From IMG/VR virus record IMGVR_UViG_3300020438_003204, positions 1-64,000 of that record: DNA of 64,000 bases. The stretch is one strand, 5' to 3'. Both the position numbers and the translations under genes were made by a program. The notes beneath the pieces were generated by a model. The model made no database searches and was not told the origin of the DNA. It saw nothing but the letters and a program-made list of their open reading frames with translations. Positions within the stretch are counted from its first letter, which is position 1; each line of letters opens with the position of its first letter. This document shows positions 13,088 to 61,100 of the stretch, one piece after another. This stretch comes from a virus.

Positions 13088-14053
13088 CTACTCACTCCAT
13101 ATTGTTTTCTTAACTCGTATTTTTGATTTGGTATGTGCTAATACACAACCTAATGCACTACTAGCATCACCGGGACTTGGCATAATCCAAGTTTTATCAA
13201 AATATTTATTGGCTGATTCTCTACAAACACTGTTCATAGAACAGCCACCCATAAGTACAATATTTTTACTAGTGGTCAATTTTAAACTGCATACAATTAG
13301 TAAGTCAACTATCTCTGCAAATATACGCTGTGTAGCTGCGGCGATATCTGTTAGGTCTTGTACTGTATTTAACTCAGGTCTCCAATCTCTACATCCTCTG
13401 TGACAATTTCTTTTAAACAGTAATCTAGGATCATCAATACTTGGCATCTTTTTAATAAATTCTGTTTTAATTAATTCATAAAATCTATCACTGTTTCCAA
13501 CTTGTGCCATTTCAGATATCATATGCTCTTGTGTCTGTGGCTGTAGTCCTACTCGTTGTGTCATTGCACTATACCAAATACCTATACTGTGTGGATAATT
13601 TTGTACAAACTTACGAGTTAGTTCAGTATCTTTACCTTCCCATATAGTAATTGTATTCCATTCTCCAATACTATCCATTACTAGTATAGCAGCATCATCA
13701 AAGCCACTGGTATAATATCCTGCGGCGGCGTGACTCAAATGATGACTAACTGTGGTGCTTTTAGGTGCATCTTTCCAAAAACCACGCATATATTTTGTAG
13801 GTGATTGTTTGCCTAACAGTGTGTATTGTCCTGCCCATAACTGTCTTGTCTTTTTAAGCCAAGGGTGTTCATAAAAATATACTTGCTTAGGCTTACCAAA
13901 TTTTAGTGCATCATTGAGTAATGGCAAACACAGTGTCTTGTCGTTGACCACATGCGTATATTGTTGTGTACGCCTAGCCCATCTAAATTTATCACCAACA
14001 AACACTGCTAGGCTTGCATCGTGGCTCATACCTGTCCATCCCCAAGTAATCAT
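13088..14053 (-). CDS. Carbamoyltransferase-like protein, N-terminal (Kae1/TobZ-like) domain only
   Basis: The 321 residues match the first domain of NodU/CmcH/TobZ O-carbamoyltransferases: GWTGMSHDASLAVF at the start, the metal-binding HHLSHAAAGYYTS near 108, LVMDSIGEW, and LMGGCSMNSV with PSPGDASSALG near the end. In TobZ-type enzymes a second, YrdC-like domain makes the carbamoyl-adenylate that this domain transfers to a sugar hydroxyl; enzymes of this family are usually some 550 residues. Here that second domain is absent. The protein either uses a partner, or has another role. It begins in a TAATG overlap with a 58-codon gene and sits between sugar genes. Confidence 0.85.
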   Translation of the reverse strand: MITWGWTGMSHDASLAVFVGDKFRWARRTQQYTHVVNDKTLCLPLLNDALKFGKPKQVYFYEHPWLKKTRQLWAGQYTLLGKQSPTKYMRGFWKDAPKSTTVSHHLSHAAAGYYTSGFDDAAILVMDSIGEWNTITIWEGKDTELTRKFVQNYPHSIGIWYSAMTQRVGLQPQTQEHMISEMAQVGNSDRFYELIKTEFIKKMPSIDDPRLLFKRNCHRGCRDWRPELNTVQDLTDIAAATQRIFAEIVDLLIVCSLKLTTSKNIVLMGGCSMNSVCRESANKYFDKTWIMPSPGDASSALGCVLAHTKSKIRVKKTIWSE

Positions 14054-14229
14054 TAGTACATCCTAATACACATAGCTTGTTGACCTGACTTAAAATATCC
14101 TGAACCTTTGCCTACTTCTTCGCTAAGTTTTTCTCTAGCATAAAAACAAGTGGTTATATCTTTATGCTGACTTACCTTTTCAACATAAGGAGTTGCATCA
14201 TAAAAATATACAAATACCAATACCCACAT
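14053..14229 (-). CDS. Small hypothetical protein (58 aa)
   Basis: This gene is bounded by TAATG overlaps at both ends: its ATG (14227-14229) sits in the stop of the nucleotidyltransferase gene and its stop (14053-14055) in the start of the carbamoyltransferase-like gene. That packing makes it very likely real. The product begins MWVLVFVYFYDATPYVEKVS, a hydrophobic aromatic strand, and later has TCFYAREKLSEEVGKGSGY. It contains two Cys and no transmembrane segment long enough to be convincing. I do not recognise a family. Confidence 0.8.
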   Translation of the reverse strand: MWVLVFVYFYDATPYVEKVSQHKDITTCFYAREKLSEEVGKGSGYFKSGQQAMCIRMY

Positions 14230-14603
14230 TAAATCTCACCTCTCTGTCTCATTTCAGCACGAATTTTTGTAGCACTTATATTGTGTACACGCTCTCCCAA
14301 ATCATGTTCAGTGAACGTATAACCTACGCCTCTGCCGTAACTAATGTTTACAATATTTGGCACAAGTGATATTTCATAATCATGTGCATACCTAAAACCT
14401 TCAGCAAATAGTGCGTTATTAATCTTTGTTCTAATATCGTGGTAGTCAAAAGGATTGTCTTCCCATCCTTGTACGTTTCTTACTGCAATCCAAATTTGAT
14501 CATATTCACTGCGAATACGTTTGAACAGCTCTGTATGACCTTCATGCCAGGGTTGCCATCTACCTAACATTTGTGCAGTGGGCTTGTTATTATGAAAAGC
14601 CAT
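14229..14603 (-). CDS. Cytidylyltransferase-family (NMNAT-like) nucleotidyltransferase
   Basis: A 124-residue enzyme of the HxGH nucleotidyltransferase superfamily. It has MLGRWQPWHEGHTELF, with the HEGH nucleotide-binding motif, and a C-terminal ISATKIRAEM matching the ISxTxxR signature that contacts the triphosphate. Members join NMP to phosphorylated substrates: NMN, pantetheine phosphate, glycerol-phosphate or sugar-phosphates. At about 124 residues it is close to the small glycerol-phosphate/sugar-phosphate members. Context (kinase-like gene directly upstream with overlapping ends, sugar genes around) favours activation of a small phosphorylated metabolite. The substrate cannot be set from sequence. 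Confidence 0.85.
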   Translation of the reverse strand: MAFHNNKPTAQMLGRWQPWHEGHTELFKRIRSEYDQIWIAVRNVQGWEDNPFDYHDIRTKINNALFAEGFRYAHDYEISLVPNIVNISYGRGVGYTFTEHDLGERVHNISATKIRAEMRQRGEI

Positions 14604-15018
14604 TATGTTGCCTCCATCTTTCTACAACTGGTTTAAGTTGCTCAGCTGTGTCTGTAAACCATTGTGCTACATGATAGTCTACTTGTGTAGGCTTCTCAAA
14701 AATAGCATTTGTATCCGCATAGCGTCCTTGTTCAATAGTATCCATCCACACTGTGTAGTCAGGTGCAAATTCTTGTCTTGCACGTTCTGTTGGACAAACA
14801 AAGTCAGCTACTGCTATACCGCCATTGGCAACAACACCATCTGCTAGGTCTCGCATACGTTTTGCTTGACGCATTCTACCTTCCAGTGTAAAGTCCCAAT
14901 CGTTAGCTTGTTCTCTTACTTGATCAGCATTTAACCACACTGCATCTATTAACTCAGCAAAAGGTTTCGCTAGTGTACTTTTGCCACTGCCTGGTAGTCC
15001 AAATATTAGGATTTTCAT
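14590..15018 (-). CDS. P-loop kinase, adenylylsulfate-kinase-like
   Basis: A 142-residue P-loop kinase. MKILIFGLPGSGKSTLAK has the Walker A motif GLPGSGKST; VWLNADQVREQAND is the 'lnaD.vR' segment of APS kinases, and GGIAVADFVCP and the ADTNAIFE segment also fit that family. True APS kinases phosphorylate adenylylsulfate; related phage proteins are often only annotated by similarity. I start at the ATG 15016-15018, which is preceded by GGAG with good spacing and puts the P-loop at the N-terminus; the longer reading back to 15087 crosses the promoter and the divergent gene. A 27-base leader follows the predicted late start at 15045. Confidence 0.82.
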   Translation of the reverse strand: MKILIFGLPGSGKSTLAKPFAELIDAVWLNADQVREQANDWDFTLEGRMRQAKRMRDLADGVVANGGIAVADFVCPTERARQEFAPDYTVWMDTIEQGRYADTNAIFEKPTQVDYHVAQWFTDTAEQLKPVVERWRQHNGFS

Positions 15019-15043
15019 TTTAACTCCATTAAGTACATAGTTA

Positions 15044-15057
15044 ATAAATATATTTAT
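15044..15057. promoter_or_regulatory. Palindromic bidirectional T4-type late promoter
   Basis: The 14-base sequence ATAAATATATTTAT is a perfect palindrome, so each strand carries a late-promoter-like box (AATAAATA on plus, CATAAATA on minus). With T4 spacing (box at -13 to -6) the plus transcript would start at 15056, the A of the plus-strand ATG, and the minus transcript at 15045, 27 bases before the kinase gene. The same 14 bases recur at 18901-18914 in the same divergent setting. Promoter function is inferred from the T4 consensus. Confidence 0.75.
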
Positions 15058-15409
15058 GCTTATATATGTTGACATTGACGGCACCATCTGTGAAGATCTT
15101 CCTCACAAAGGAAAGACTGAACAACAGTATCGTAGCCAAAAACCTTTCAAAGATAGAATAGAAAAAATTAATAAACTTTACGAGCAAGGTCATACCATAG
15201 TGTACTGGACTGCCAGAGGTGCTACTAGAGGCATCGACTGGACTGACATGACCACTGAACAACTTGCTGAATGGGGTTGCAAGTATCATGAACTTGTTAT
15301 GAATGCAAAGCCAAACTTTGACATGTACATTTGTGATAAAAGTTTTAACAGTGAACATTGGTTTACTCAAAGTTTGTATGAACAAATTGATCCTGTGGAA
15401 GCAAACTAA
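15056..15409 (+). CDS. HAD-superfamily phosphatase-like protein
   Basis: A 117-residue plus-strand gene. MLIYVDIDGTIC holds the catalytic DxDGT of HAD hydrolases within the first ten residues, VYWTARG is motif II with its Thr, and CDKS near residue 97 would be motif IV. HAD enzymes of this small size remove phosphate from sugar-phosphates, for example heptose bisphosphate, or act on nucleic-acid ends. No ribosome site precedes the ATG, and the predicted late +1 falls on it. It is convergent with, and overlaps by 47 bases, the isomerase gene on the other strand. Context favours a nucleotide-sugar pathway. Confidence 0.85.
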   Translation: MLIYVDIDGTICEDLPHKGKTEQQYRSQKPFKDRIEKINKLYEQGHTIVYWTARGATRGIDWTDMTTEQLAEWGCKYHELVMNAKPNFDMYICDKSFNSEHWFTQSLYEQIDPVEAN

Positions 15410-15869
15410 TAATCTTTTCAAATATATAAATGAATCCTATCTCGTAATAGCTTTTCATTAGTCCTGGTGTTTGCGGCTGTGGATAACTTACTATGTTATC
15501 ACACTGTGTACATATTGTACCTTTTGGATTAAATGTAATTGCTAGTGTACGACACCCTGCATTTGTTGCAACCATTGTGTACGCCAAACTGCTAAGTGTT
15601 GATCCACTTGCTGTTACAAATACTGCTAGATCATTTTCATCTATAGGAGTTATTAGTATATCTTCGCTATGACTTACAGTATATCCCAACTGACTAAGAC
15701 GTTGCATAAACATTTTAGTTGCAAGTCCAACTCTACCTTTAGCGATAAACACTATGCGTTTTGCACGTTTAATTTCGCTAATGATTGTAACTTCATTGTC
15801 AGTATCGTCTAAGTCATTTACATAACTAGTCCATGTTTGTTCAAAGTCACTCTTTGTACGTTGTGTCAT
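15363..15869 (-). CDS. SIS-domain sugar-phosphate isomerase-like protein
   Basis: A 168-residue SIS-domain protein: RIVFIAKGRVGLATKMFMQRL is the first strand-loop-helix, followed by DLAVFVTASGSTLSSLAY, where the classic SGSGxT is ASGST, and GCRTLAITFNPKGTI. The closest families by length and order are 6-phospho-3-hexuloisomerases and KpsF/GmhA-type isomerases, which interconvert ketose and aldose phosphates. The gene next but one upstream encodes a ribulose-phosphate-epimerase-like enzyme, which would fit a pathway from a pentulose or hexulose phosphate. It overlaps the nucleotidyltransferase-kinase gene by 23 bases. Exact substrate unknown. Confidence 0.82.
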   Translation of the reverse strand: MTQRTKSDFEQTWTSYVNDLDDTDNEVTIISEIKRAKRIVFIAKGRVGLATKMFMQRLSQLGYTVSHSEDILITPIDENDLAVFVTASGSTLSSLAYTMVATNAGCRTLAITFNPKGTICTQCDNIVSYPQPQTPGLMKSYYEIGFIYIFEKIISLLPQDQFVHTNFE

Positions 15870-17253
15870 ATTTCTTCAATTGTTGTATAGCCAACAAGAA
15901 CAAAAATTTGTTTAATTCTTTATCAACATTTAGAGGACTCATACTAAGCCAAATACATCCAACTCCTAGTTCTATCTTGCGTTTGTTTAAGCAATATACA
16001 GGACTAAGGTGAAACTGATTAAGTCGAAGTTCATCCTCATCGCTCGGCGATAGTTTAATTATATAACCATCGTCTGTTTGTGTCAAGTGATATTTTTCCA
16101 AGTTACGATTGTGCAAATGCAAACTATGATAAAATTTACAAATATCATAAAATATATCGGTGACAACACCCGGGCGATGATCTATATAGTGTATTGCGTC
16201 TTCACTGACTATAATATTATCTACTACTAAATCGCCATGACATGCACCAGTTATTCCTGTGCTTACTAGATCCCAATCAATGTTCTCTACCGTTCTTGTA
16301 CAGTCTATTGTTTCGCCGTTTAGTTTTATTGTTCCACTAAACTGTGGAAACTGTTGTACTATTTGATCAAAACGTTGCCATGTTTTGTCTTGCCACAGCG
16401 TTCTATCTACACAAGGTATATTGTTATACATACTAAAACGCCAAGTGTCTTGTAGGTTGTTAAACAGTTTGTCGAAGTCACCGTTGACTGGATTAACTTT
16501 GCCCTCTACACGACTATAGCTTAATCCGTGTGTACTGTGTTGGATAGGATGAGGGTGCGGATAGTTTGCATTAGGTTGTATAGCAGGCTTGTCGGTAAAC
16601 AGTTTAATTATTCTTCCATTTACACTGTATATCTCCTGATGTGTTTTATCTAGAACACTAAAACTAGCGTCTTGTCTAACACTGTGATAACTTTCAATAT
16701 TACCCACATCGTTCCAGTTGTCCAAAGGTTCACTTTGTAAGTTGTCAAGTTTTTGTAGTAACAATAAATCATTTCTGCTTATGTCTGTTGCTTGTAATAT
16801 ATCATAATACTCCAATGAATCTTTTATAAAACTAATACCACTGTAAACACCCCATTCACTAGTGTCATAGTATTCATCATTTTCAGGTTTACAAGTATAA
16901 TAGGTATTGTGTTTAGCTGTAGGAACATGATTGCTCCAGTTGTCACAAGCATTGTAGTACACAGGTTCATCAAATACATGACGGGGTATTTGTTTAAAGC
17001 TGGCTATCTGACTGCTATTCCAATTATCTATTTCGACAAATTCTACATTTTTGCGACCCGTGTGTTGTATATACTCACGTATATACTCGGCTTCATAACC
17101 TAGTGTAATGTATATCTTTTCTATATCTTCAAAGCTATCAATGATATGATCTATCACTGCATTGTCGCCTATGCGTATTAATGCTTTGTGAAACTTGGTA
17201 TAACCAATACTGCGAGTACCTGGACCACTGCAAGGTATTAAGAGATTAGGCAA
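15847..17253 (-). CDS. Sugar nucleotidyltransferase fused to aminoglycoside/choline-kinase-like kinase
   Basis: A 468-residue two-domain protein. Residues 1 to about 210 form a sugar-phosphate nucleotidyltransferase: LIPCSGPGTRSIGYTKFHKAL is the GxGTR..PK.L signature, with YNACDNW as the metal-binding segment. The C-terminal part has ACHGDLVVDNIIV (HGDxxxxN) and IHYIDHRPG, the catalytic and metal-binding motifs of choline/aminoglycoside-type kinases. A kinase and a nucleotidyltransferase in one chain would phosphorylate a sugar or alcohol and then join it to a nucleotide. The fusion resembles LicC/LicA-like activities, though heptose or other sugars are equally possible. The start overlaps its upstream gene by 16 bases. 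Confidence 0.85.
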   Translation of the reverse strand: MPNLLIPCSGPGTRSIGYTKFHKALIRIGDNAVIDHIIDSFEDIEKIYITLGYEAEYIREYIQHTGRKNVEFVEIDNWNSSQIASFKQIPRHVFDEPVYYNACDNWSNHVPTAKHNTYYTCKPENDEYYDTSEWGVYSGISFIKDSLEYYDILQATDISRNDLLLLQKLDNLQSEPLDNWNDVGNIESYHSVRQDASFSVLDKTHQEIYSVNGRIIKLFTDKPAIQPNANYPHPHPIQHSTHGLSYSRVEGKVNPVNGDFDKLFNNLQDTWRFSMYNNIPCVDRTLWQDKTWQRFDQIVQQFPQFSGTIKLNGETIDCTRTVENIDWDLVSTGITGACHGDLVVDNIIVSEDAIHYIDHRPGVVTDIFYDICKFYHSLHLHNRNLEKYHLTQTDDGYIIKLSPSDEDELRLNQFHLSPVYCLNKRKIELGVGCIWLSMSPLNVDKELNKFLFLLAIQQLKKYDTTYKE

Positions 17254-17846
17254 TTTAAATTTTCCTCATAGTTTTCATTGAACAATACTTTACTGCCTAC
17301 CACCAGTGTTACTTTTCTATCGTCCTTAAATTTTCTAACAGTATCTATTGTAACACCACCATCTACTGTAACATGACGTTGTGTGTCTGCAAGTGTATCC
17401 AAGTTGTAGTATGCGTCTTGTACTTTAATACCTGGAGCATATGCCATTAATAAAAATTCATCCACATCTAATCTATCGCAGATAGTATCTATTTGTTGTA
17501 TAGTATGATAAGGTTTGAATGCTAGTTTTAGTCTACTATCTCTTGTTAAAAAGTCAACACATTGTTGTTCACTGTGAAAACTTTCGTAGTGTGCAAATAT
17601 AACGTTTGCTCGTGTTTGTAGTATTGCTTCCCATGCTGGGTTGTTGCAAGTTATCATTGCATGTATATCAATATAACTAGGATAACTCAGTTCGTCTACT
17701 GCTTCTGGATGCACACCCAAACGTGGAACAAAGTGTCCATCCATAAAGTCCATGTGTACACTCATATCGTAATGAGGCTTTAGCTTTTCGTAGCTTTGAT
17801 AGATGTTGTATGGTCTATCACATATATAACTTAAACTTAACTGCAT
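17238..17846 (-). CDS. Ribulose-phosphate 3-epimerase-like TIM-barrel enzyme
   Basis: A 202-residue protein with the epimerase signature VHMDFMDGHFVPRLG (HxDxMDGxFVP; the Asp of MDG is a catalytic acid/base), a middle strand FLLMAYAPGIKVQ in place of VNPGFGGQ, and VTVDGGVT with the second catalytic Asp. Canonical enzymes are some 220 residues and swap D-ribulose and D-xylulose 5-phosphates. The change of the phosphate-binding NPG segment to APG suggests a modified substrate such as another ketose phosphate. It overlaps both neighbours, and pairs naturally with the SIS isomerase nearby in a sugar pathway. Confidence 0.88.
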   Translation of the reverse strand: MQLSLSYICDRPYNIYQSYEKLKPHYDMSVHMDFMDGHFVPRLGVHPEAVDELSYPSYIDIHAMITCNNPAWEAILQTRANVIFAHYESFHSEQQCVDFLTRDSRLKLAFKPYHTIQQIDTICDRLDVDEFLLMAYAPGIKVQDAYYNLDTLADTQRHVTVDGGVTIDTVRKFKDDRKVTLVVGSKVLFNENYEENLNCLIS

Positions 17847-37828: not shown

Positions 37829-39281
37829 TATGCTTTTCTTTCCAATCTAAGAACAACTGTGCAAACTCCGGAAATGTATGACTAAAATCTGTTTTACGTC
37901 TATAGTCATGTGCTCCAAAGAATCTAACAAAATTTTCTTCCGCATCTTGTTTCTGCTGGTCGTTATCAAATCCTTGCTTCATAAATTCAATACTACGATC
38001 AAATCTTTCAATTTGATGTGGTTTGAATCCTATCCATCTACTAGCTCTGTGCCTGTCTTGATTCTCTTTCATAAATGCTAAACACTCGTCAGCAAGATAC
38101 CAATGACTCTTAGGCGTAAGCTGTAAACTTTGCCACTCCGGATGTCTTAACATAGGTGTATCCAAAAATACTTTACTGTGACCATATACTACAATTTTAC
38201 CACTATCATCTCTTCTACTTTTTGTTACATTGTGAATACGCTGTAATTCTAATATACCTTCCATTAAACGTTGTATGCTAGGTAAACTAAGCATGTTGAA
38301 CGTTACAATAAACGTTACCAATCCTTCGTCCACTCTAGTTAGATAATTATTTACATTGTTCCACATGCGATCAAAGTCTAATCCATGACGCATATATTCA
38401 GCTTGTCTACCCCATCCATCTACACTAACAAACATACGAAAACGTTTTAGTTTTTTATACTCACTTATGAAACTTACTTTATCAACAAAGTTATTCCACA
38501 ATTTATCAGGTACACTACAATTTGTAGTTACAGCCATTTCTAAATCGTCTCTGCCATTGTCAATAACATGATCTAAAACTTTGAATGTATTTTTATCCAT
38601 GAGCGGTTCTCCGCCTGTCATTCTAAAGTTTTTTAGTTTTGGATAAAGTTCCGGCCACCATTCCCAAAATGCATCTACATAAGGATTGTGATCTCTATTT
38701 TTAATAGGATATTGTCCTATTTGTTTAAAGTAGTCAATGCTATTGTGAGGTACTTTGGTTGGATAAGGTCCATTTTGTTCAATATCTTCTGCCCACTTAC
38801 TGCTTAGATGCGGACTACAATAACTACATGCTAAGTTGCAAGCATGATTAAAATTGATCTCCATGCTTGTAGGTTCTATATCGCCATCTGCACCTTTTTC
38901 TAATACATCTTTCCAACCAGCTTGTGCCCAAGGTTCGCTACTTCGATAGTGTCTATCACTATTAAAATTACGATCCATCTTTTCAATATTCCAACAGTAG
39001 TCACACCCGCTAGGTTGTTCTCCTTTGAGCATCATAGCTCGTTGTTCTTTTTTCTCTGGTGTATTGTGTAATGCTTTTGGATTATTTTTTAGATCTTCTG
39101 CATTAATTTTATGTATAGGAGGTAGGTAGCAACTATTAGTTGTTCCATTGGTTAAATGAATACTGGTCCACAACCATTTAGCCATACACATACTATCACT
39201 TATTTCAGCAAGTTTTGGCTTTACTAGTTGTGCGGCTGTTTCCGGATCTGGATCAAGTTCGTAATTGTTTGTGTTTGTCAT
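37821..39281 (-). CDS. Radical SAM protein with variant N-terminal Cys domain, copy 13
   Basis: A 486-residue relative of the previous entry: SMCMAKWLW, TNSCYLPPIHKI, a KNPKALHNT linker (also in copy 12), GCDYCW, then the core ACNLACSYC with SPHLSSKW and MTGGEPLMD, and the shared AFWEWWPEL insertion. The tail is AHDYRRKTDF followed by FPEFAQLF. These two copies form a sub-family whose auxiliary-cluster site has CY in place of CC. It is the first radical SAM gene transcribed in this array and is coupled (ATGA) to the adenylyltransferase-cupin gene upstream. Confidence 0.93.
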   Translation of the reverse strand: MTNTNNYELDPDPETAAQLVKPKLAEISDSMCMAKWLWTSIHLTNGTTNSCYLPPIHKINAEDLKNNPKALHNTPEKKEQRAMMLKGEQPSGCDYCWNIEKMDRNFNSDRHYRSSEPWAQAGWKDVLEKGADGDIEPTSMEINFNHACNLACSYCSPHLSSKWAEDIEQNGPYPTKVPHNSIDYFKQIGQYPIKNRDHNPYVDAFWEWWPELYPKLKNFRMTGGEPLMDKNTFKVLDHVIDNGRDDLEMAVTTNCSVPDKLWNNFVDKVSFISEYKKLKRFRMFVSVDGWGRQAEYMRHGLDFDRMWNNVNNYLTRVDEGLVTFIVTFNMLSLPSIQRLMEGILELQRIHNVTKSRRDDSGKIVVYGHSKVFLDTPMLRHPEWQSLQLTPKSHWYLADECLAFMKENQDRHRASRWIGFKPHQIERFDRSIEFMKQGFDNDQQKQDAEENFVRFFGAHDYRRKTDFSHTFPEFAQLFLDWKEKHNV

Positions 39282-40051
39282 CGTCTTATGATGTCCTCTT
39301 CAATACAATTTTCACCATATTGTACTTCTAATATATGTGCAGGTTTATCACCTTCGTTGGTTACTTTATGCCACCAATTATTCTGTATCACAAAGTTTGT
39401 GTGTTCAGTTAGCATTTGTATTTGCCAGTCTCCATTGGGAAATTCTAAGTTAATTGTAACATCACCTTTTAACACATACCAATGTTCACTTCTCATTTTA
39501 TGTTTCTGGTCGCTTAAACTAGCTCCTGGGTTAATAACTAATTCTTTTACTTTTATAGTTTTCTTATCATCTAATACACGCCAGTAACCCCATTCACGTT
39601 CAGTCTTTTGTGTCCGCCATTCATCTAATATCCAACTGCTTGAATTCTTTTTATCATTGCCGCCAACTCCAAATGCAAATTCTACATCTGGATGATTACC
39701 GTACTCTTCGTATTCTGGAGTTGTAGTATTGCTTCTATCTCCACCATTTGCAAATATTAATTTACCAGCGTTGGTACATAGTGCTAAAAATATTCCTTGA
39801 TTCGCTGTATCATCACTATCATCAAATCCAATTATTTTATCTACTACTTCTAATTCTCTGATAATTGACGCACGTTCTGCAAAAGGCATGAACGCTTTTC
39901 CTTTTTTACGCATTAGCCATTCGTCACTGTTTACACCAACGACTAGCTTGTCGCCTAATGCTCTAGCGGCTTTGAAATATGCTATATGTCCACTGTGTAG
40001 AGGATCAAATCCGCCAGTAACCAGTACTGTAGATTTATTCGATACTGTCAT
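39278..40051 (-). CDS. Fusion: sugar-phosphate adenylyl/cytidylyltransferase plus cupin
   Basis: A 257-residue two-domain protein. The first 140 or so residues match HldE/RfaE-type and glycerol-phosphate-type nucleotidyltransferases: VTGGFDPLHSGHIAYF with the HSGH motif, VVGVNSDEWLMRKKG, and a FAERASIIREL segment. Then IVNPGASLSDQKHKMRSEHWYVLKG is a cupin with HKxRxEHW, like the mannose-6-phosphate-isomerase type-2 cupin domain. HldE transfers AMP to heptose 1-phosphate. I start at ATG 40049-40051 (MTVSNKS), since the longer reading runs 75 bases further into the upstream gene. The fusion suggests a bifunctional nucleotide-sugar enzyme. Confidence 0.87.
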   Translation of the reverse strand: MTVSNKSTVLVTGGFDPLHSGHIAYFKAARALGDKLVVGVNSDEWLMRKKGKAFMPFAERASIIRELEVVDKIIGFDDSDDTANQGIFLALCTNAGKLIFANGGDRSNTTTPEYEEYGNHPDVEFAFGVGGNDKKNSSSWILDEWRTQKTEREWGYWRVLDDKKTIKVKELVINPGASLSDQKHKMRSEHWYVLKGDVTINLEFPNGDWQIQMLTEHTNFVIQNNWWHKVTNEGDKPAHILEVQYGENCIEEDIIRR

Positions 40052-41012
40052 CAACTTGGTTTTCTCTAACCATTGCACCAAGTCTGTGTGGATTTTTATA
40101 AACCTTCTTAAAGAATCTACTAGCAACTTTGTCCATATCTGAAATTTCTAAATCTAGCTCACCGCGAAGATCTGCACCAAGTTCTACTGTTTTCTTTTTA
40201 AGTTTATCCCAATCCCATGTTACTCCAGTGTTCACACACATTTCAGTTCCGTCTTCAAACTCAGGAAATAATTCTGTATTAAAAAAGTTAGTTAACCAAT
40301 CAAAATCTCTCACATTACGCCAGTCCCACTTGCGTCTTTCAACATTGGTCATATGACAACCTAGTCTTGCACCATAAATTGCCCATAAACCGTTTGTTGC
40401 ATCTTCGCCTACACTCATCCATACTAATAGTCTTTTGTAATTTTCGTGAAATATTTTTTTGATATCTTTTGCTTCAACTACATCTCCACCTTCTAATCCC
40501 ATCTTTACGCCTTCACGAAAACCTGCTCTCCATGCTTGTAGTGGACTAGCATTGTTAGCAACATCACAATAGATGTTATTCATTTGTACATACTGTATGT
40601 TCCAACAAAAATCAACCTGTGCGGCTTTATCACTTTCAGGAGCAGCTTCATGTGTACGCATCTTGTTTACTACGTCTACGGGCCAACATTTGATGCCGCC
40701 GTTGCCATATACCAATCCGTTTACTGCATTTTTTCCTGCCCAACTAATAACATCTGTATCCTTAATTCTTTCCATGTCTAGTTCGACATTAAAGAAGTCA
40801 TCTCTAACTACATTATCTGCATCAACTGTAACAAATCTATCTGTATCACTCATTGCCGCAGCCGCTTTGTGTGCGGCATCACTGCCCCATACTCCATGAC
40901 TACGTTTTGCCCAAGGACATTTTTCTAATAGATGTGCATAATTTTGTTCAGCGTTTGGTTCGTCATAGCTGATGAAGACTATATCAAATTCTGTAATTGG
41001 TATTAGTGGCAT
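40035..41012 (-). CDS. GT-A-like glycosyltransferase-type protein, paralogue of 12258-12962
   Basis: A 325-residue protein: DIVFISYDEPNAEQNY, then KRSHGVWGSDAAHKAA, FVTVDADNVVRDDFF with a DxD-type motif, LVYGNGGIKCWP and AWRAGFREG. The series is characteristic of a protein family common in T4-like marine phages and usually labelled glycosyltransferase; I rely on the DxD context for function. The paralogue at 12258-12962 is shorter by 90 residues, mainly at the C-terminus, which here carries an extra Arg/Lys-rich end. It lies just upstream of the adenylyltransferase-cupin gene. Confidence 0.72.
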   Translation of the reverse strand: MPLIPITEFDIVFISYDEPNAEQNYAHLLEKCPWAKRSHGVWGSDAAHKAAAAMSDTDRFVTVDADNVVRDDFFNVELDMERIKDTDVISWAGKNAVNGLVYGNGGIKCWPVDVVNKMRTHEAAPESDKAAQVDFCWNIQYVQMNNIYCDVANNASPLQAWRAGFREGVKMGLEGGDVVEAKDIKKIFHENYKRLLVWMSVGEDATNGLWAIYGARLGCHMTNVERRKWDWRNVRDFDWLTNFFNTELFPEFEDGTEMCVNTGVTWDWDKLKKKTVELGADLRGELDLEISDMDKVASRFFKKVYKNPHRLGAMVRENQVDDSIE

Positions 41013-46880: not shown

Positions 46881-46888
46881 TATTTATA
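46881..46888 (-). promoter_or_regulatory. Perfect T4-type late promoter TATAAATA
   Basis: The exact T4 late box occurs on the minus strand, at the end of the giant gene: its bases include the stop codon TAA (46884-46886). Predicted +1 is 46875, giving a 14-base leader ahead of the gene at 46861. No other gene lies between. Confidence 0.82.
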
Positions 46889-49800
46889 TCGATCCTTGCC
46901 CTGCATTTCTAATGAACGCATGTTCAGGTGAAATTCCTGCAGCACTTAGGCTTATTCCGCTGTCATTGTACGCTAAACGCAATCCGTCCTCATAATGTGA
47001 GAATTTTTGTACTGTTGGTATACGTTGACTTGGTCCTGCATTAGTAACAGTTGCACCGCTGGTGTGTGCTTGAGATGAAGTTCCTCTTGTTCCTCTAGTG
47101 CAAAACACAAGATTTTCTCCACTTACTGCATTGTATTCTATTCTTTCAGTTCCTATCCAAACCACTCCAGGTACTAATCCTATATCTCCGTCGCCTCTGT
47201 CTACTCGATCCATCAAACCAGCATCTACTAGTGGTATGGTTGTATCGGTTGCTGTTATATTAGCAGTTGTTGTAGTTTTGTAGGTATCAACAATAGCAAC
47301 ACTTTCTTGTAATCCTTGCGGTTCGTACATGTTAATTCTAAATGTTCTGGTATCTGCTGTCTCTGTGCTTCCGCTAGCATTTGTTTGTACTAGTATACTA
47401 ATATTTTCTGTGTAGTCCACAGGCATTAATTCTTCTCCCCAACCTTCTTTATCTGGCTGGTCAAAAATATTACCATCATAATCAAATTCAAAGTCTGCTG
47501 GCTGGAAGTTAAACATTGAATAATCTTCATCAGTCGGAACATTACTAGAAAATCCGCCGCCACTTAATACAGTATCGCCTGCCCATGTTCTTAAGGTGTG
47601 ATCTCCATGTTTGATAGTTATACATGTATTCCTACTTACTTCGTCAACTTCAATATTTGTTGATTCGCCATGTGTATTACTATCCATACTACTTAACAGT
47701 TTTGTATGGAAGGGTTTTACACTATTAAAAAAGTCTTCAACTGGTTCTATTGATGTTGGCTGATAAAACTTTTTGTTTAGTAACAGAGGACGTTTAACGT
47801 TTAAGTGTGTGTAAGTCGTTTTGAAAGCGAAATCATCTGCTGTGTTTTGTAGTAGTGCAGTAAACAACATTTTAAACCATAGCTTGTTATATTTCACTTT
47901 GTGGTGATTAATGAATATTTCTGTTCTCAGTAAGTCAAACAATTTGCTAATAACATTTTCACTTCCGCTATCAAAAGGAACAACATCAAAATTTGCTACA
48001 TCAAACCCATGGCCAAACTTGCGTTGGAACCAAACTTCTTCACTTAGTTCTATTGTTGCTTTTTCCTTGAACACAAGTTTATCAGCACCATTGATAAAGT
48101 GATACATTTCACTTCTAATAATATCATCACCCGAAGTGTTTTTAATTAATATATAGCTTCCATCTATTGGTTCACCTGCATCAACATAGTCCTGCTTTGT
48201 ATTGTATACTAAGTCTGGTACTGTGTTTGTAGGAAACTGGTAAGTTATATTATCATCAGCATCTCTTTCAATTAATTTCCAGTCAACTAATGCAATATAA
48301 TCGTTTATATCATAAGTTATCACACCTTCAGTGAACTTTGTTGTAAATGCATTTTCCCAGTTGTTAATCTCGTCAATTACATTTACTTCACTTAGTAATG
48401 AGTTTACAGTATAAACAAAGTTTTGTCTAGCTTCTTCTAACTCTCTATACAAACTTTGTCTAGGTCTTACTTGATGTCCATATCTATTAAACTTATGTAG
48501 CTTTAAGTTAGGTATAGGCTGACTTCTTAAAATAGTTATATCGTTAATTTGTGTATTATTCTCGAATGAAAAATCATACACTCTTTGCCAATGCGACATG
48601 TCGTTGTCGATGCTAGGTTTATTATTCTGATTACTTGCAACTCTACTTATGTAAAAATTTCCATCATTATCTCTCACTACTGCATCTGCCGCATAAGAAG
48701 TAGAAGGTGACCAAAGGCTATATGTTTTAGTAACACTAAATCGATTGAAGCCAGATAAACTGTCTCTAATTTTAATATGTAAGTACTCTGGGATAATACT
48801 TTGAGGATCATCTTCTGCTAACATAAGCCAGTCTTGCATTGGTAGAGCATTAAACCTTCTATCAACATCTAATTGTACTACTGTATTTTCTGTAACTGAA
48901 TTACTAATACCGGACAATAATAATGTATCTGTGCCTGCTGTGGCGCACCAACTTAAATTATATCCACTAGGGTCAGTTAATAATTGACTTAGTTGCAATA
49001 CATTGTACTGTCTAACACCACTAAAGTTTGTTTTGTTTTTAACCCAGAAATAATATACTGATTCGTTTCTTTTTGTTCTGTTATTGTAATAAGATTCTTC
49101 TGTCCAGTTGTAAACTATTTCGCTATTAATCACTGTAGTAAATGCTTCTCCGCTTGCTACTTTTCCGTCAATAACAATTTCTTGGTCTACTAGTTCAATC
49201 CATTTTTCTGGCAATACAGGAGATCTTGTCCATTCATATATATCTATAGTTGCACCGTCAAATAGCTTGCCCCAGTTGTTTTGCATATAATCTATGCTAC
49301 CTTGTTCATAGTCTAAATAAACTGCGGTACTCAAATCCCACCAACGTTTTCCAACATAGCTACTTTGCCATGCATTAATGTTCTCAACTGATCCGTCCAA
49401 CGAATTGTAATTGTAATTTGCAACATCATTAGTTAGAATATAATCAATCTCATTCTTAATAAATCCAAATATAATTCCCTTGACCGGGTCATATGTTTCT
49501 AAACTAGTAATAGTTGTTTGCTTAACAGCATCATATAGTTTAACATTATTAACCAAATCATTTCTTGCTTGCTTATTGCCACTTCTAACTATTTGCCATT
49601 CGCCAACATTGCCGTTTGTATCGTTCCATGTTCCTACCCATTTGTAAACTTGACTGCTAGGATTGCTAGCACTTCCATCATTGTCTACAAAAGCATATAT
49701 AGGATGCAATGAATTATTTTGTCTAACACCTGAAAAATTATACTTGTAAATTCCATTTACTTTGGTTTGTCTATCTGCTTCTAGTGCAGCGTAAGTACTA

Positions 49801-52800
49801 AACCTCATTTTTCTTAACGGATAAATGTTACCTGTGTGTCCTGTTTTTTCAATATATTGATCAATATAGAATCTTCTAATGTTGTTTGGATCTACCCTAG
49901 TAACTCGATGAATGCCATCGATACTAGGTACACTATCACTACCTCTAATTAAAATGTAATCACCAACTACTAGATTATGTGCTTGCGTTTCACCATTCTG
50001 TCTAGTTACATCAATTTGTGCTTCGTCTGCATCTTCAATTCCGCCACAAGCATCGTGTGTGTACATGCCAAAGTCCATTGTTTGATAAATTTCATGTCCT
50101 AAGTTATAGTTTCCGAATTCACTATCATCTGCAACCCAAATACTAAAAATGTTTGGATCATTGGTCATTTGTTGAAATACTTGATTTCCATCACTTCCTA
50201 CAATAGCATTAAACACATTACTTACATTGCCTGTTGTAGCACTATAAGTTTGTGCAGTTAAACCTAAGGTAGAGTTCGCAGTACCAGCTCCGACTACCAG
50301 TGTTGAATTTGTGCTTACAAGTTTAACTTTATTATTAGCAGATATCGCTGTCACACCTGTTATTGTAGCAAGATTAATACTTTCTAATATGTCAGGCAAA
50401 CTTAAACTTGCACTAGTTGTACTTGTAGTTGTACTAGCAGGTGTTATACCACTACTAAGACCTATAGTTGCATTTGCTGTTCCTGATCCTATAAAGAATT
50501 GACTCAAACTACTTTGCAATCTAATTAAATTTCCTAACACACTAGCAGTAACGCCTGTAATACTAGCATTGTTAATTTGATCTACTACCTGTTGCTGAGT
50601 TAAATTAGGTGTTGATTGTACATTTGAACCTTGTGATTGTATAGTTTCTTGAGCACTATTAAATCCTACAGTGCCATTCATTGTACCAACACTAATTGTT
50701 AAATCAAATGCAACAGAAGGAGTACTAGTTGTTTTAGTAATTGTTAGTTGACTACTCGGATTGTTGCCAGCTGTAATGTTACTAATACCTGAGGCATTAA
50801 TTCTGTTTACAATGTCAATCACTGAATACTGTTTAAATCCACTGCCAGATTGTGTTGCAACCACTGTGGTTACTGCAAAGACAGCTGGAGCATTAGCTTG
50901 TAGATATATTGCAATGTCATCAGTGAATACACCGTTATTCATTCGTCCTTGACAGGTTGCTATCTGACTTGGACTAATTATCTCTGATCCGTTCGCTACA
51001 TTTGTTCCTATGAAACTTGTACCCAACATATTGTTAATAAGAATTACGTCTTGGTCTAAAAATTGCTGTGCGGCTGTTGCTGTAGTGCCACCTAATTGTA
51101 CTAGCGTTATTACATGAGAAATGTTTAGTCCTGCATTATTTGTATAGTAAGTTCCTAGCCATGTTGCCCATGCCGCTGCACTATTAGCCGCAATATATGC
51201 TGATCTTAAACTCTCAATTCTTGCAATTCTAGTTGTTGCTGTAGTTGCTATTGTGCTTTGGTTTTGTATCCAACTGCTGCTATTAAAAGTATTCTCATAT
51301 GCTTGTTGAGCTGTGATATTAGTATTTGTTGTAATTAATTCGTTAAAGTTAACTGTAGTTCCATCAATAATTAGTGTAGCAGTTGCACTACCTTGTATCA
51401 TTGGGTTAACTGTAGTTCCTGTTTTAACAATATCATTAAACGTTGTTGTTATAACACTGTTACTAAATGTTATCGTTGAGCTTGATGCACTTGTTTGTCC
51501 TAATACCAATGTACTGTCATGTGCTACTTCATTATTAGTTCTAACATCTTGCGACCCATCAACTGTGATTACATTTAATGTTGTACTTGTTGCACTTTTG
51601 GTTAAACTGATAGTAGTACCGTCAATTACTAATGTTTGTCCTACACTAGGAATAATAGGTAGAGTAACTGTACCAACAAGTTCAATAGGATTATTAGCTG
51701 TAGTCAACCCACTAGCACCATCCGGATCTAACATCTCCCATACTCTACCAGTATGAATTACTTTATCTCCTAGTTTATAACTAGTCTTGCTATCCCATTT
51801 GTCATAGTCTTGCCAATCCCCGTCAAAGTCATATGCTATTCTTGTTTCTGAAGGGAAAAGTAAGAAATCTTCTTTATTAAGTGCCCTATAGTCTGTTTCA
51901 GTTAATAACGGAGCACCAGCATTGATAAAGTCATTTGCAAACATACTGTTTTGATTTTGATCGTCATATGTTTTTATTTCTCTGGTTGTAAATTGTTCAG
52001 AATCTGGATTGTAAACATTTAGCGGACTAGTATCATCAATATCAATTACAATATCACTGAGTACATCATATTTTTGCCCACTTGTAAATCTAATAGGCTG
52101 AGGATCTGTTACTAATAGTCGAGGTGTTATTTGAAACTCAGTTAATTTTCTTTTGGCAGTATCTCCAAAGTCAGCCATTCTAACTGCCCACATCTCATTG
52201 AGATCAGCTGTAGCATCTCCGTTGAATAAACCTCTGTTTCTCATAAATGCATCTAATGCATAACGTGTACCTTTGTATTTGTATGTTCCTTTAACAAATT
52301 CATATACACTATCATCATCTAAATCTAGTGTATTGGCCCAATTTGGTTTATTGTATCCACTATTAAATCTAGCAACATCACTAATTTGTTTATTGCTTAA
52401 TGTATTTGTCTTAGCATAGTATTGATCTAATTGTCCAGCTACACTATCAAAGTTTGGTAATATACTATCACCATTAACTATGTGTCCTGGTGTAAACAAT
52501 TTACCATTCCAGTTTTTAGTTCTGTTGCCTCTCCATATAATTCTTTCGTGTATTTGTCCTATTTCACTCGAAGCTATAACATCATCAAAGTTAGTTACAT
52601 TATCAAATATAAAAACATGCTCCATTTGTACTTTGTAAAGTCGCAAACCAAACATATTAGTTGTAGTTTCTTTAGTTTGAAACACAGTTTCTTCGTCCAA
52701 TGACATTGAGCTTCTGTTAATAGCAATATCACTAGCACTAATTTGTTTACCTAAGTTACTAACAATATTATACACACCGTCATATCTTGTGTTTAAATTA

Positions 52801-55800
52801 TCAAAGTATCCTAATCTATCATCTTGTACTGTTACTTTGTTTGGATCTGGAATCAAATATAGTATTTCTGTACTATTACCAGTTGCCCAATTACCAAAGT
52901 TACTGCCTGCGTTCTTCCAAGACTGTGTAAAACCTAAACTAGTTAAGTAATGTCCGTATCCTTGAATAAAGTCATAAACTTCTTGTATTGTCTTTAGTTC
53001 TGTGTTATAGTCTAGTTGACTAATAGCAGTTTCAAAGTCTGTGTATCTTCTGACATCTACTTGTAATGTTCCACTAAATGTTACTTTAGCACTCGAACTA
53101 TTTGTTGCCGGTGCATTATAGTTAAAATAACCTAAGCTATTGTCATACCCATTAACAGTATAACCATTGGCTGTTTTAGTTACAATAATGCCACCAAAGA
53201 AATATTCAATGTCGGGTTTATTAACATATAAGTGTGTACTAAAGTTTTCTTCTGGCACAAACACTCTACCTTTATCTTGACTACTTTCTAGAATAAAATT
53301 TTGATTATTGTTTACAAATCCGCCTGCTTTAATAATAGGATTGAATGTCATATTTTTAAATCTTTGTAGTATTACGTCGGATGTTGTTCCACTTAATAGA
53401 GCATATGATGTAATACTATTACTAAATCCACTAAAGTAACGTCTAGTATCTTTTTCAATGACAGCCTCTAGTACACCATTGCCACCACTCAAAACTAGCC
53501 TAGGTGTATTAAAGTATTCCTGTCCTTGCTTTGTAATTCTAGCAGCAACTAATTTACCACCTTTAATACTAATTGAAATTTCTGCTCCTGATCCAAAGTT
53601 GTCATAAACTGTTACAGTTGGAGCACTAGTATAACCACTGCCTGCATCTTTTATTCTAACACTTTCGATAATAGCACCAATAATTTTAGCATCACTGAGA
53701 TCTATATTGCTCCAGCTTGTTAGCTTTCTTTGATCCGAGTCACGTACTTGTGGATTATTATATCCTAAAGTGCTTATGATAGTTCTTTTATCAGTTTTAA
53801 AATATAAGTTAGTACCAATTAACGGTCTTGTTCGTAGCAATGCTAAAGCTGATGCAAATTTAAATTCACTACTTCTACGCCATTGCTCTTCTACCGGACC
53901 CCAATCTCCGTATACAAAATCTTTTTGTCTATCTGCAAGTACAGGAGTTGTTACTACACCTGCTGTCACTGGATCATTTAATACTCCTAGTAGTGTTACT
54001 AATGTATTTGTTGACCAATCATATGAAGGGTAACTATAGTCTAAATCATATACTTGTAAATTACTTGCTAGTCCAGGATCACTGATATTACCATATTTTA
54101 ATGCTGTAATCAATGCTGTACGTTTACTCGCATCTGTCCAACTATAGTTTGCGTCCCACCATGTAGGTTTTTCATTATATCCCATCATCTCCCAAGGATC
54201 AGTATGAGGTTTGTCAGTATTAAAGAAGTATCGGTATAGCCCTCTCCATCCTCCAATATTCGGAGTAACACTACTGTAGTTCCAAGTGAACTTGTCAGAC
54301 CCGCTATAGTAAGTAGATGAATTAAAATTAGTTACATTGTTTTCTGTTTTCCATTTATTGTATTCGCTTCTAATAGTATCTTGAAAGTTTTTCCAAGTAT
54401 AAGGAGTATTTCTGCTTGCATTGGGCCAATACTGTTTTGAATTGACAACTAATGGTAACTCGACACCTAAGTTATTAGATATCCGCAATTCTAAATCCCA
54501 AAGACCTGCGTCTACTGGATCAAAGCCTACTACTTGTCTATCAAATAATTCTGTTCCATTGCGTACATGAACATTACCATCATGTCCAATAATTACACTA
54601 TCAGTTGCTGTACCTGTACTATCTTTACTATAGTTACTTCTTAGTTCAGGTGTAACAGGTCTTGTTAATCCTAGCTTTACACTACTTGGTGGTACAAAAC
54701 TTACACTATCTCTTTTGTACCATCTAAAATGTAGGTTATTTTGACCACTACCCGGAAATGTAATTCCACTAAGTGTAATAATAATCTGAAAATTATTGAA
54801 TGTATATTCTTCTGGATACTTCAATGCTCTCCATGTGTGAGCACCTGCTGCATCTGGAATTTGTACCCATGCTTGTGTGTGATTAAAGGTATCATCATAC
54901 TCATTAACAGTAAATGGTAAGTCAAATGTAGGCGTTTGATTCAATACCCAACTAAAATTAGCTTCTTCATAATCTCTGTACATTGCCATTTGACTTCTAG
55001 CAAATGCACTTGTTTTGTTTCTGCCAATGTTTATTGCTTCTAATGTTTTGTCAACTAGTTTATAAACAGGCTCTGTAATATCAACGCTTTCATTTAACTG
55101 TGTAATTTTTGTTTTGAAAGATCGAATAAAGTTTTTATAACTGTTACTACTATACTGTAAACTACTAATTGGATCGGTGTCATTCTCAGTAAACAACTGA
55201 TTAATAAGTTCAGTTGAATAAGGTTGTTGCCTAATTATGCCGCCAAATGTATGGTCGTGTGGAATATTTCTATAGTTATTAAATCCGGCCCATTCACCTG
55301 TAAAAGTTGGAATCTGTGTCATCTGAGATTTTAAATGTAATAGTAGATCTCCATAGCTAACTTTTCCAAATGTTGAATTTTGTGGATTAAATTTATGTGT
55401 ATCTACTACTTCAAAATTACCTTCAGCAGTATCACTATATTTTGCAGTAGTAAACACTGAAACTTGATATTGATCTTCTTTTCTAAGACCACTACTAATT
55501 TCTAGTATATTCCCCGTCAACGTGTAGTTTGTAAAACTAGCACCGTTTTTAGTAACTTTAATATTTGTCTCTTGTGTACTTGTATGTAGATATACAACAC
55601 CAAAGTTATCTGGACTTGCTGCTAATCTATATTTAAAACTGTTAATAGTTGGGCTTGCTATTACAAGATTAAAGTCATCTCCCGACCCTGGTGTTCTTGT
55701 GATTCCGCTACTTAATGTTGTCCCATCCATATCAACAAATTCTAGTTCGGCTTGTGGAAACTGTGTACGAATAAAGTAAGTTGTGCTTGTGTTCAAATAC

Positions 55801-58181: not shown

Positions 58182-61100
58182 TAATAGCCTCCTCCACTGC
58201 CACCGCTTCCACCGCCTCCGGTGCCGCCACTTACACTTACATTAGTACCAGTGTTTTGTGAAATTGTAGTACTATTTCCAGCTAGTGTTTTCGTAACAAC
58301 AATATTTGAACTTGCTAATATAGGTAAAAATAATTCATCGCTATCACTAGTTATCTCAAATAATGCAGTGTTATTTTCTATACTACTAACTGGGTTAATT
58401 GTTATTTGACTTATTTCACCTATCATATTATTATGTATGAAAGCTGCCATTTCAGTAAAGTAAAACTCTTCGCCAAAGTCCCAGTTATCAATATTAAAAT
58501 AAGAGTAGATTAGATTAATAACTCTCTGTTGTATTTCTGTATCACTAAGTGTACTGTTTACAGTTTTTGTTACATTAAATCTCGCTTGAAGTTCTCCACT
58601 TGCTAAATCTCCAAATAGTATTTTATACTTAACAGGTCGATATATAACTTGATCACTAATACTTTTCTTTTCGTTTAAGCTATCAAACAACTCTCCTAGT
58701 TCACTTACAGTTGGTGGAGTAGGTTTAGTTTCAATTCTACCATCGTATTGTGCCCATGTTCTAAACTGTGTATTGTAGCTGTTTAACAATACATAAGTGT
58801 CAATGATATTTGTGGTACTTGGATCAATCACTTGATTAATGTCAGCAATTCTGTTATACTGAACATGTAAATCACAAGCTCCATTTACCTGTGTAGTTCC
58901 ATTTGTATTATCAACTATACTGTAATCGTATCCATCAACTGTGGTTGTGCCTAAATTTATAGTTTGATTTGCTATTATCTGGTTAAATGCTTCAGGGTTA
59001 TTAGGATATCCGTCATTGTCAGGGTCAGCTAAACTAACTCTCAAATTATGAGGATCTGTGTATCCGTCTGCATATGTAAATGTTCCAAATGCGTTAAACT
59101 TATAATCTATACCCATTGGGTCTGGATTTGTTTTGCTCTTAGGATTAATTTTCAATATCTTAATATTATCTCTCAGAGGTTTATGTGTTTCGCTACTGAA
59201 CGAGCTATTAAAGTTTAAGTTTGTAAATTTAAGTTTTTTAGGACTTCCTAATACAAACTGTGTTTTTCTTGCTAACATTTCCCATTCGGTCGCACTATAG
59301 TTAAAACGTAATACCCAACTGTTATCTATTCCAGTACTTGATCCGTCTCCTTCAAACTGTCTATTCCAGTTAGTAGGATCATTTAGTGTTGCAGTATTTG
59401 CAGGCAAGTTTGAACTGTCAATAATTATCCACTGCTGACTTTCTGCACTATATCTTAATGCAAAACTATTTCTACTGTCAATTTTATCAATAACATTTTG
59501 TCTAGTTGTAGCTGTCAAATCTATTGCAATCTTAGGAACAATACGCTTAACTCTTGCACCAGTTGGTATAATACCGTTAATTACTACTGAGCCTTTTCCA
59601 GTATTATCAATCCCTGATGGTGTACCAGTACTATCATCTTCGCCGAGTCCATCTTTATAAATTCTATCAATTTTAACCCATTGTATATCTGCGTTAACAA
59701 TCGTTGCTACTGCACTTGCTCCAGTACCACCACCGCTAGAAAATGATATATTTGTACTCTGATCATATCCGCTTCCGGTATCGGTAATTGCAACACTAGT
59801 AACTGTACCGTTTGCTACTGTACATGTTGCTGTTGCTCCGGATCCTTTTCCTATAACTGTTACTGTAGGTGTACTAGTATATCCGCTACCTCCATTGGTA
59901 ACAGTAGCTACACTAATATAACCTTCTTTATAAGGACTACTAATAAATTCCACTAGTCCATTGAGATCTGCTTTTTTCAAACTGTTTGTAGCTGTTAATC
60001 CTACTCGTTGTACATTTGAATTTAATGTAAAGTAACCACTACATCCGTTTGCGCCTTTTGTTACTTGTGTCCAACGAAATGTATTAGCATCAGATGTACC
60101 CAAGTATGTTATTCCACTTGTACTATCTGAAAAATCTGTTTGTGCATCATGTGTTGTAGTACTATAACCTTGTCTGTTATAGTAGAAATTACTTACTTCA
60201 GGATTAGCAAGGAGATGTTTGATATGTTTGTTGAATATACTTGCGCCTGACAAGTTAGTAGGTAAATTAATTACACTTCTAGTTGTTATATTATTTTCGT
60301 ACAAGTAAGCGTCATCTGTATATTGTATTGCATCTGCATAAGTTGCTGTTGGATCATATATGTCACGGAATCTACTGTGTCCACTATGTACTCTATTAAT
60401 ACTTTTAATTTTACGAATGTTTTCACTTACTGTTACAGGAAAAATGCTGTAATCTTCTGCTGTTACCATTCTATCCTGTGTTGCAAAGAATCGAGGAGCG
60501 TTAGCTTTAATACTTGCTACACTTTCTCTTGTACTTGCATTTGTAACATTTGTTTTTAAACTTGCATTAAACATTGCACTGTATGTGTTTCCGTTTGATC
60601 CAATATATCTAAGTGTAAAACTAGTAGTGTTAAAACTGTCTGGAGTTAAGCTGTATGTTTGATTAAGTCCAGTTCTATACCATACTCTAATAATCCCACG
60701 TGGAGTATTTCCAAAATTGCCGTCAGCAAACACAACACTAATTTGATCATCTTGTCTACTTGCAACACTAAAAATATCTCTAATAGCATTGTTCTTTGCA
60801 TTAAACAATGTTCCGTTTCCAAATAGTCTGTCTACTTGTGTCCAATTCTTTTGAATTTGACCTACTTCGTCTATTGTTTGTACCCAAACATTTCCATTTG
60901 CTACGTTATCAGCATTAATATCTAATACCAAATTTGGTAGACCTTCTGTAATTTGAAAGTCTTTGTGTTCTAGTTGTCCTTGTTTAAATCCTACAAAGAA
61001 ACCTGTGTTAGGACTGCTATTACCACTACTATCGTTTTTGTACAAAAAGTCAACTACTGCATAAGGGTTAGGTGTTTTTTCGTTTACTGTCTGTGTGGTG

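Follow-up and report, generated by a model that had tools for sequence, protein, structure and literature searches.

During the anabolic recycling of MurNAc in Pseudomonas, the HAD phosphatase MupP strips the 6-phosphate, AmgK phosphorylates C1 and MurU makes UDP-MurNAc (PMC5371407). The GDP-heptose route of GmhA, HddA, GmhB and HddC draws on an SIS isomerase, a kinase, an HAD phosphatase and a nucleotidyltransferase, and CDP-choline is made by the kinase LicA, of the APH/choline-kinase-like type, and the cytidylyltransferase LicC. In allose catabolism (AlsE), an RPE-family 3-epimerase and an aldose/ketose isomerase interconvert fructose-6-P, allulose-6-P and allose-6-P. No description of a gene set comparable to the one reported here was found in the literature searched, and the nearest case is the formation of CDP-6-D-glucitol from fructose-6-P, for which other enzymes are used (PMC10918830).

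In this study, we analysed a window of 64,000 nucleotides, part of a 67,758-base IMG/VR viral record, in which six genes at 14229-17846, the HAD gene on the plus strand and the other five on the minus strand, had been read by the initial annotation as parts of a single nucleotide-sugar pathway. All six ORFs are real, and the enzyme classes given to them were named correctly, as judged by Pfam, PHROG, NCBIfam, fold and motif evidence. A single putative pathway is retained for four of them: an RPE-like ketose-phosphate 3-epimerase, a nucleotidyltransferase-kinase fusion, an SIS isomerase and a small HAD phosphatase are the core cassette of a marine phage, whereas the P-loop kinase and the HxGH nucleotidyltransferase belong to a separate module.

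MupP-AmgK-MurU provides a precedent for the last three steps of the scheme proposed below, but the cassette fuses kinase and nucleotidyltransferase in one polypeptide and adds a ketose-phosphate 3-epimerase and an SIS isomerase, a way by which MurNAc is not reached. All four enzyme classes of the GDP-heptose route recur in the cassette, but here the isomerase is PHI-like, the kinase is APH-like, the nucleotidyltransferase is fused to the kinase and a 3-epimerase is added. The kinase and cytidylyltransferase types of LicA-LicC are also shared, but the cassette domains are fused and linked to a sugar-phosphate epimerase and isomerase, with no choline gene identified. The front end resembles allose catabolism run in reverse, from which it differs by the SIS enzyme and the activating fusion.

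Linkage and conservation of the core genes

Each gene was used on its own to gather viral loci, by exact peptide patterns on IMG/VR fragments. Starting from the epimerase, 15 viral loci were obtained, of which 12 are untruncated, and all 12 have the fusion, SIS and HAD genes. With the SIS gene as the starting point, epimerase, fusion and HAD were present at 12 of 13 viral loci, the remaining contig starting within the fusion. RPE and SIS agreed in presence or absence in 12/12 contigs (both in 8, neither in 4). The order RPE, fusion, SIS, HAD was retained down to about 45-50% identity, and one relative with the cassette is a 198-kb contig. Because L002/L003 and L008/L009/L018 are the same or near-identical viruses, these loci represent about 10 distinct cassette lineages. 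Catalytic motifs are invariant in the core proteins at the positions that could be placed, and dN/dS between the window and its relatives was about 0.04-0.30 where synonymous sites were unsaturated. Recurrence of the genes in order in other viral contigs, together with purifying selection, shows that the six-gene observation was not due to chance. Conserved co-occurrence, which had been suggested as a check of the pathway, was found for the RPE-like, fusion, SIS and HAD genes and not for the P-loop kinase and HxGH nucleotidyltransferase.

The highest correlation of divergence was that between RPE and SIS (r=0.84). Correlations of the fusion with RPE, SIS and HAD were lower (0.49-0.54), in part because of an apparent gene swap: the fusion of the window (15847-17253) is 63% identical to that of contig L005 (10001-11413) while the flanking cassette genes are 87-99% identical, and thus recombination within the cassette has apparently exchanged this gene. 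The strong RPE-SIS correlation, and the fact that RPE, SIS and HAD all act on sugar phosphates by class, would also suit auxiliary metabolic genes diverting flux in the pentose-phosphate pathway of the host, with the fusion unrelated to them. However, all intact cassettes have the fusion flanked by RPE and SIS, an HAD enzyme dephosphorylating the product would drain the pool, and the surrounding island is of glycan type; we therefore regard flux redirection as highly improbable.

Two genome-contig scans with exact peptide patterns, a limited search, gave no cellular copies of the cassette. A plasmid scan gave no match for the fusion and one weak match for the epimerase, and the epimerase had no match among 50,697 phage records.

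Classes, folds and motifs of the four core proteins

Each core enzyme falls in a known superfamily, and all score below the curated NCBIfam threshold for any named family. The epimerase (17238..17846, minus strand, 202 aa) matches PF00834 (E 3.3e-19), PRK05581 (6.8e-22; 77.8 bits against a curated 165) and TIGR01163 (1.2e-19; 70.5 bits against a curated 212.6), and by these matches it is assigned to the RPE superfamily without being filed as RPE. It is closer by score to RPE (1.2e-19) than to AlsE (4.3e-12). Residues H31, D33, H62 and D162 are invariant in 11 viral epimerases and align with the metal and acid-base residues of solved RPEs. Since the host already has an RPE, the phage copy may point to a different ketose or to a need for flux.

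The SIS-domain sugar-phosphate isomerase (15363..15869, minus strand, 168 aa; PF01380, 1.9e-12) is HxlB/PHI-like. Its best NCBIfam model is TIGR03127 (HxlB; 5.8e-19), at 68.7 bits against a curated 160, and no phosphoheptose isomerase (GmhA) model was matched at E<0.1 in NCBIfam. The SIS profile matched the solved PHI-like proteins AF1796, YckF and MJ1247 (2e-13 to 3e-12), and the C-terminal HTNFE is invariant. The initial annotation had pointed to APG in place of NPG in the epimerase and to ASGST in the SIS domain as departures from standard families. The former is seen only in the window and the sequences nearest to it, NPG being the reading in most homologues; the latter is present but not peculiar, since the whole family reads ASG[SNQH]T. 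As signs of a new substrate both motifs were rejected.

The fusion (15847..17253, minus strand, 468 aa, TTG start) had been described as a kinase-nucleotidyltransferase. Both domains are present, in the opposite order: an N-terminal nucleotidyltransferase of the MurU/LicC/HddC type is followed by a C-terminal kinase of the APH/choline-kinase type, assignments that are weak by sequence and clear by fold. Sequence searches against solved structures returned nothing for the fusion, and a fold search was therefore done with AlphaFold2 models (pLDDT 86 for the fusion, 88 for the kinase domain alone). Foldseek placed PaMurU first for the nucleotidyltransferase domain (7.7e-9), followed by LicC (9.7e-9), with HddC (3.0e-7) and PntC also matched. 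Matches of the kinase domain were weaker, the closest solved relatives being ethanolamine/choline kinases (2.8e-5), then maltokinase (7.2e-4) and MTR kinase (1.2e-3), along with APH enzymes. Two of these matches, maltokinase and methylthioribose kinase, place the phosphate on C1 of a sugar. The nucleotidyltransferase signature is that of MurU/LicC/HddC-type enzymes and is invariant (G-P-G-[TS]-R, K23, the metal Asp D104 and W-x-D-[VI]-G), as are the APH-family motifs (H339-G-D341-L..D345-N346 and I357-D358). The kinase thus has an APH/choline-kinase fold, neither GHMP (HddA) nor PfkB (HldE). A distant fusion homologue was observed in Marine virus AG-345-E15 (L030:5533-20167), in a sugar island with HAD, cupin, SDR and GHMP-kinase genes.

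In four contigs (L010, L011, L013 and L024) the fusion adjoins a carbamoyltransferase, with no RPE or SIS of these families contig-wide and no HAD in the examined flanks of the fusion, the contigs being fragments. The substrate may be obtained otherwise in these viruses, the genes may lie beyond the fragment, or the substrate of the fusion may be a different one, e.g. an amino alcohol. The last reading can be extended to the cassette itself, where the fusion would activate an amino or other alcohol in the LicA/LicC manner, by a kinase and then a CTP:phosphoalcohol cytidylyltransferase, and RPE, SIS and HAD would be a separate, adjacent sugar step. These four contigs, the rank of LicC as second-best fold match and of choline/ethanolamine kinases as best matches of the kinase domain are consistent with it, but MurU is the top nucleotidyltransferase match and HddC is matched too, the weak kinase fold matches include sugar kinases, no choline-specific gene was identified, and RPE and SIS are linked to the fusion in 12/12 epimerase-first loci. 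We consider alcohol activation unlikely, and sugar activation by the fusion is the reading kept below.

The HAD phosphatase (15056..15409, plus strand, 117 aa) was recognized by PHROG 1238 (E 7.1e-26) and its motifs. Its gene lies on the strand opposite to the other core genes and overlaps the SIS gene at its 3' end; conservation shows the ORF to be real. It matches the solved 'capsule biosynthesis protein' 9iqw (2.2e-11), and the residues of the HAD motifs (DxDGT, T, K, D) are invariant (D6, D8, T52, K85 and D94). Among NCBIfam models it is not closest to any GmhB model.

These assignments bear on the heptose product first suggested, which would be made as an NDP-heptose from sedoheptulose-7-phosphate. 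While SIS isomerase, kinase, HAD and nucleotidyltransferase make up the GmhA/HddA/GmhB/HddC list of classes and HddC is among the nucleotidyltransferase fold matches, the isomerase has HxlB/PHI as its best model, the kinase is APH-like, the HAD protein is closest to the capsule-biosynthesis chain, and the known heptose route has no 3-epimerase step. With no enzyme of the GmhA, HddA or HldE type in the cassette, an NDP-heptose product finds no support as the leading reading and is very unlikely.

Neighbouring genes and genomic setting

The P-loop kinase (14590..15018, minus strand) is nearest to APS kinase (PF01583, 4e-8), and the HxGH nucleotidyltransferase (14229..14603, minus strand; PF01467, 4.7e-4; PHROG 10255, 1.5e-19) is NMNAT-like, nearest to archaeal NMNAT (PRK01153, 1.4e-7), both below the NCBIfam cut-offs. 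The P-loop kinase occurs at at least 520 viral loci; among the 80 loci inspected, the HxGH nucleotidyltransferase accompanied it in 78 and the sugar core in 3. Its recurrent neighbours, identified by eye, included DNA replication genes and, at 16-18 loci, KdsA/KdsB-like genes. In Casjensviridae phages the two enzymes are one protein, near DNA topoisomerase and MazG-like genes and with no sugar genes among the neighbours listed, and on one contig about 52 kb separate the P-loop kinase from the sugar core. The locus counts, the Casjensviridae fusion and this separation mark the pair as a phage module of its own, and a very common one, and it was rejected as a source of sugar pathway steps. One may guess at NAD salvage or a PAPS-synthase-like reaction as its role.

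A carbamoyltransferase with only the N-terminal Kae1-like domain (13088..14053, minus strand; PF02543, 1.2e-24) is a constant neighbour, near the fusion or near the cassette end wherever enough sequence was covered. Its C-terminal domain is missing in the window lineage (L005, L008, L018), and a two-domain form is present in L010 and others. It is a possible tailoring step.

Cyanophage genes annotated as 'phosphoheptose isomerase' (L026-L029, L033; T4-GC 306 in S-SM2) match the HAD profile with E of 1e-25 to 1e-40, and the label is likely a misannotation, since it is an HAD phosphatase profile and not an SIS isomerase that is matched. The 'LPS' clusters of cyanophages S-SM2, Bellamy and S-CAM3 share with the cassette this HAD family, T4-GC 306 (PMC3037559), and in them HAD lies beside nucleotidyltransferases, kinases, glycosyltransferases or carbamoyltransferases. 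Unlike the cassette, S-SM2 and Bellamy have a class II aldolase ahead of the HAD gene; there (L027:2702-6791, L028:2690-6749) a nucleotidyltransferase, a GT61 gene and the aldolase precede HAD, and this run of genes is a possible parallel cassette.

The remainder of the window is mostly an island of radical SAM and glycan-type genes, with more than 12 radical SAM/SPASM-type genes in tandem in this phage genome (214-11014 and 29818-39281). An HldE-like adenylyltransferase-cupin does lie elsewhere, at 39278-40126 (PF01467, 1.3e-13; PF01050, 1.7e-20). Radical SAM genes are likewise found beside the fusion where a contig has none of the other three core genes (e.g. L010, L011 and L013), and for this reason the suggested link of the sugar to radical SAM steps has no specific support. 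At the right end of the window are baseplate-type genes, including that of a 1192-aa protein (58181-61759) whose best matches are baseplate wedge proteins of very large myophages (Sinorhizobium phage Phosso, Salicola phage SCTP-2, and Erwinia and Serratia jumbo phages); adjoining them is a very large ORF of 3765 aa (46884-58181).

A putative route to an activated sugar

From the genes, their folds, intact motifs, selection and linkage, which are established, we infer the reactions, their order, the sugar and the nucleotide, and propose that the four-gene cassette probably converts a ketose phosphate of central metabolism to an NDP-activated aldose. The simplest scheme that uses all four proteins would have five steps. 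The RPE-like enzyme would act on a 2-ketose phosphate and invert C3, turning, for instance, ribulose-5-P into xylulose-5-P or fructose-6-P into allulose-6-P, and the SIS enzyme would isomerise the 3-epimer to an aldose phosphate. HAD would then strip the terminal phosphate to give the free aldose, the APH-like domain of the fusion would phosphorylate the anomeric hydroxyl to an aldose-1-phosphate, and the MurU/LicC-like domain would join this sugar-1-phosphate to an NTP, giving an NDP-aldose. The sequences are compatible with a MupP-like order, in which HAD precedes the kinase, and with a GmhB-like one, in which HAD follows it. Neighbouring island genes and the carbamoyltransferase might then transfer or O-carbamoylate the product.

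What remains of the unusual nucleotide sugar first suggested is thus a putative dedicated cassette of four linked genes drawing on a ketose phosphate, without the heptose and without the six-gene membership. A pentose and a hexose are both conceivable as the sugar. More tentatively, and with more doubt than confidence on our part, the product may be a nucleotide sugar that cells are not known to make, built on a rare aldose of the allose, altrose, xylose or lyxose type that 3-epimerisation and isomerisation would yield before activation by the two-domain protein.

The survey illustrates that linkage across viral contigs can tell true pathway members from bystanders. If the scheme is true, marine phages would encode a short, self-contained path that leads from central metabolism to an activated sugar, in which a ketose-epimerase/isomerase front end is joined to a MupP-AmgK-MurU-like back end. 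The cassette is small enough for in vitro test and, on that reading, would give a named product to one of the many marine-phage glycan islands that lack an assignment.
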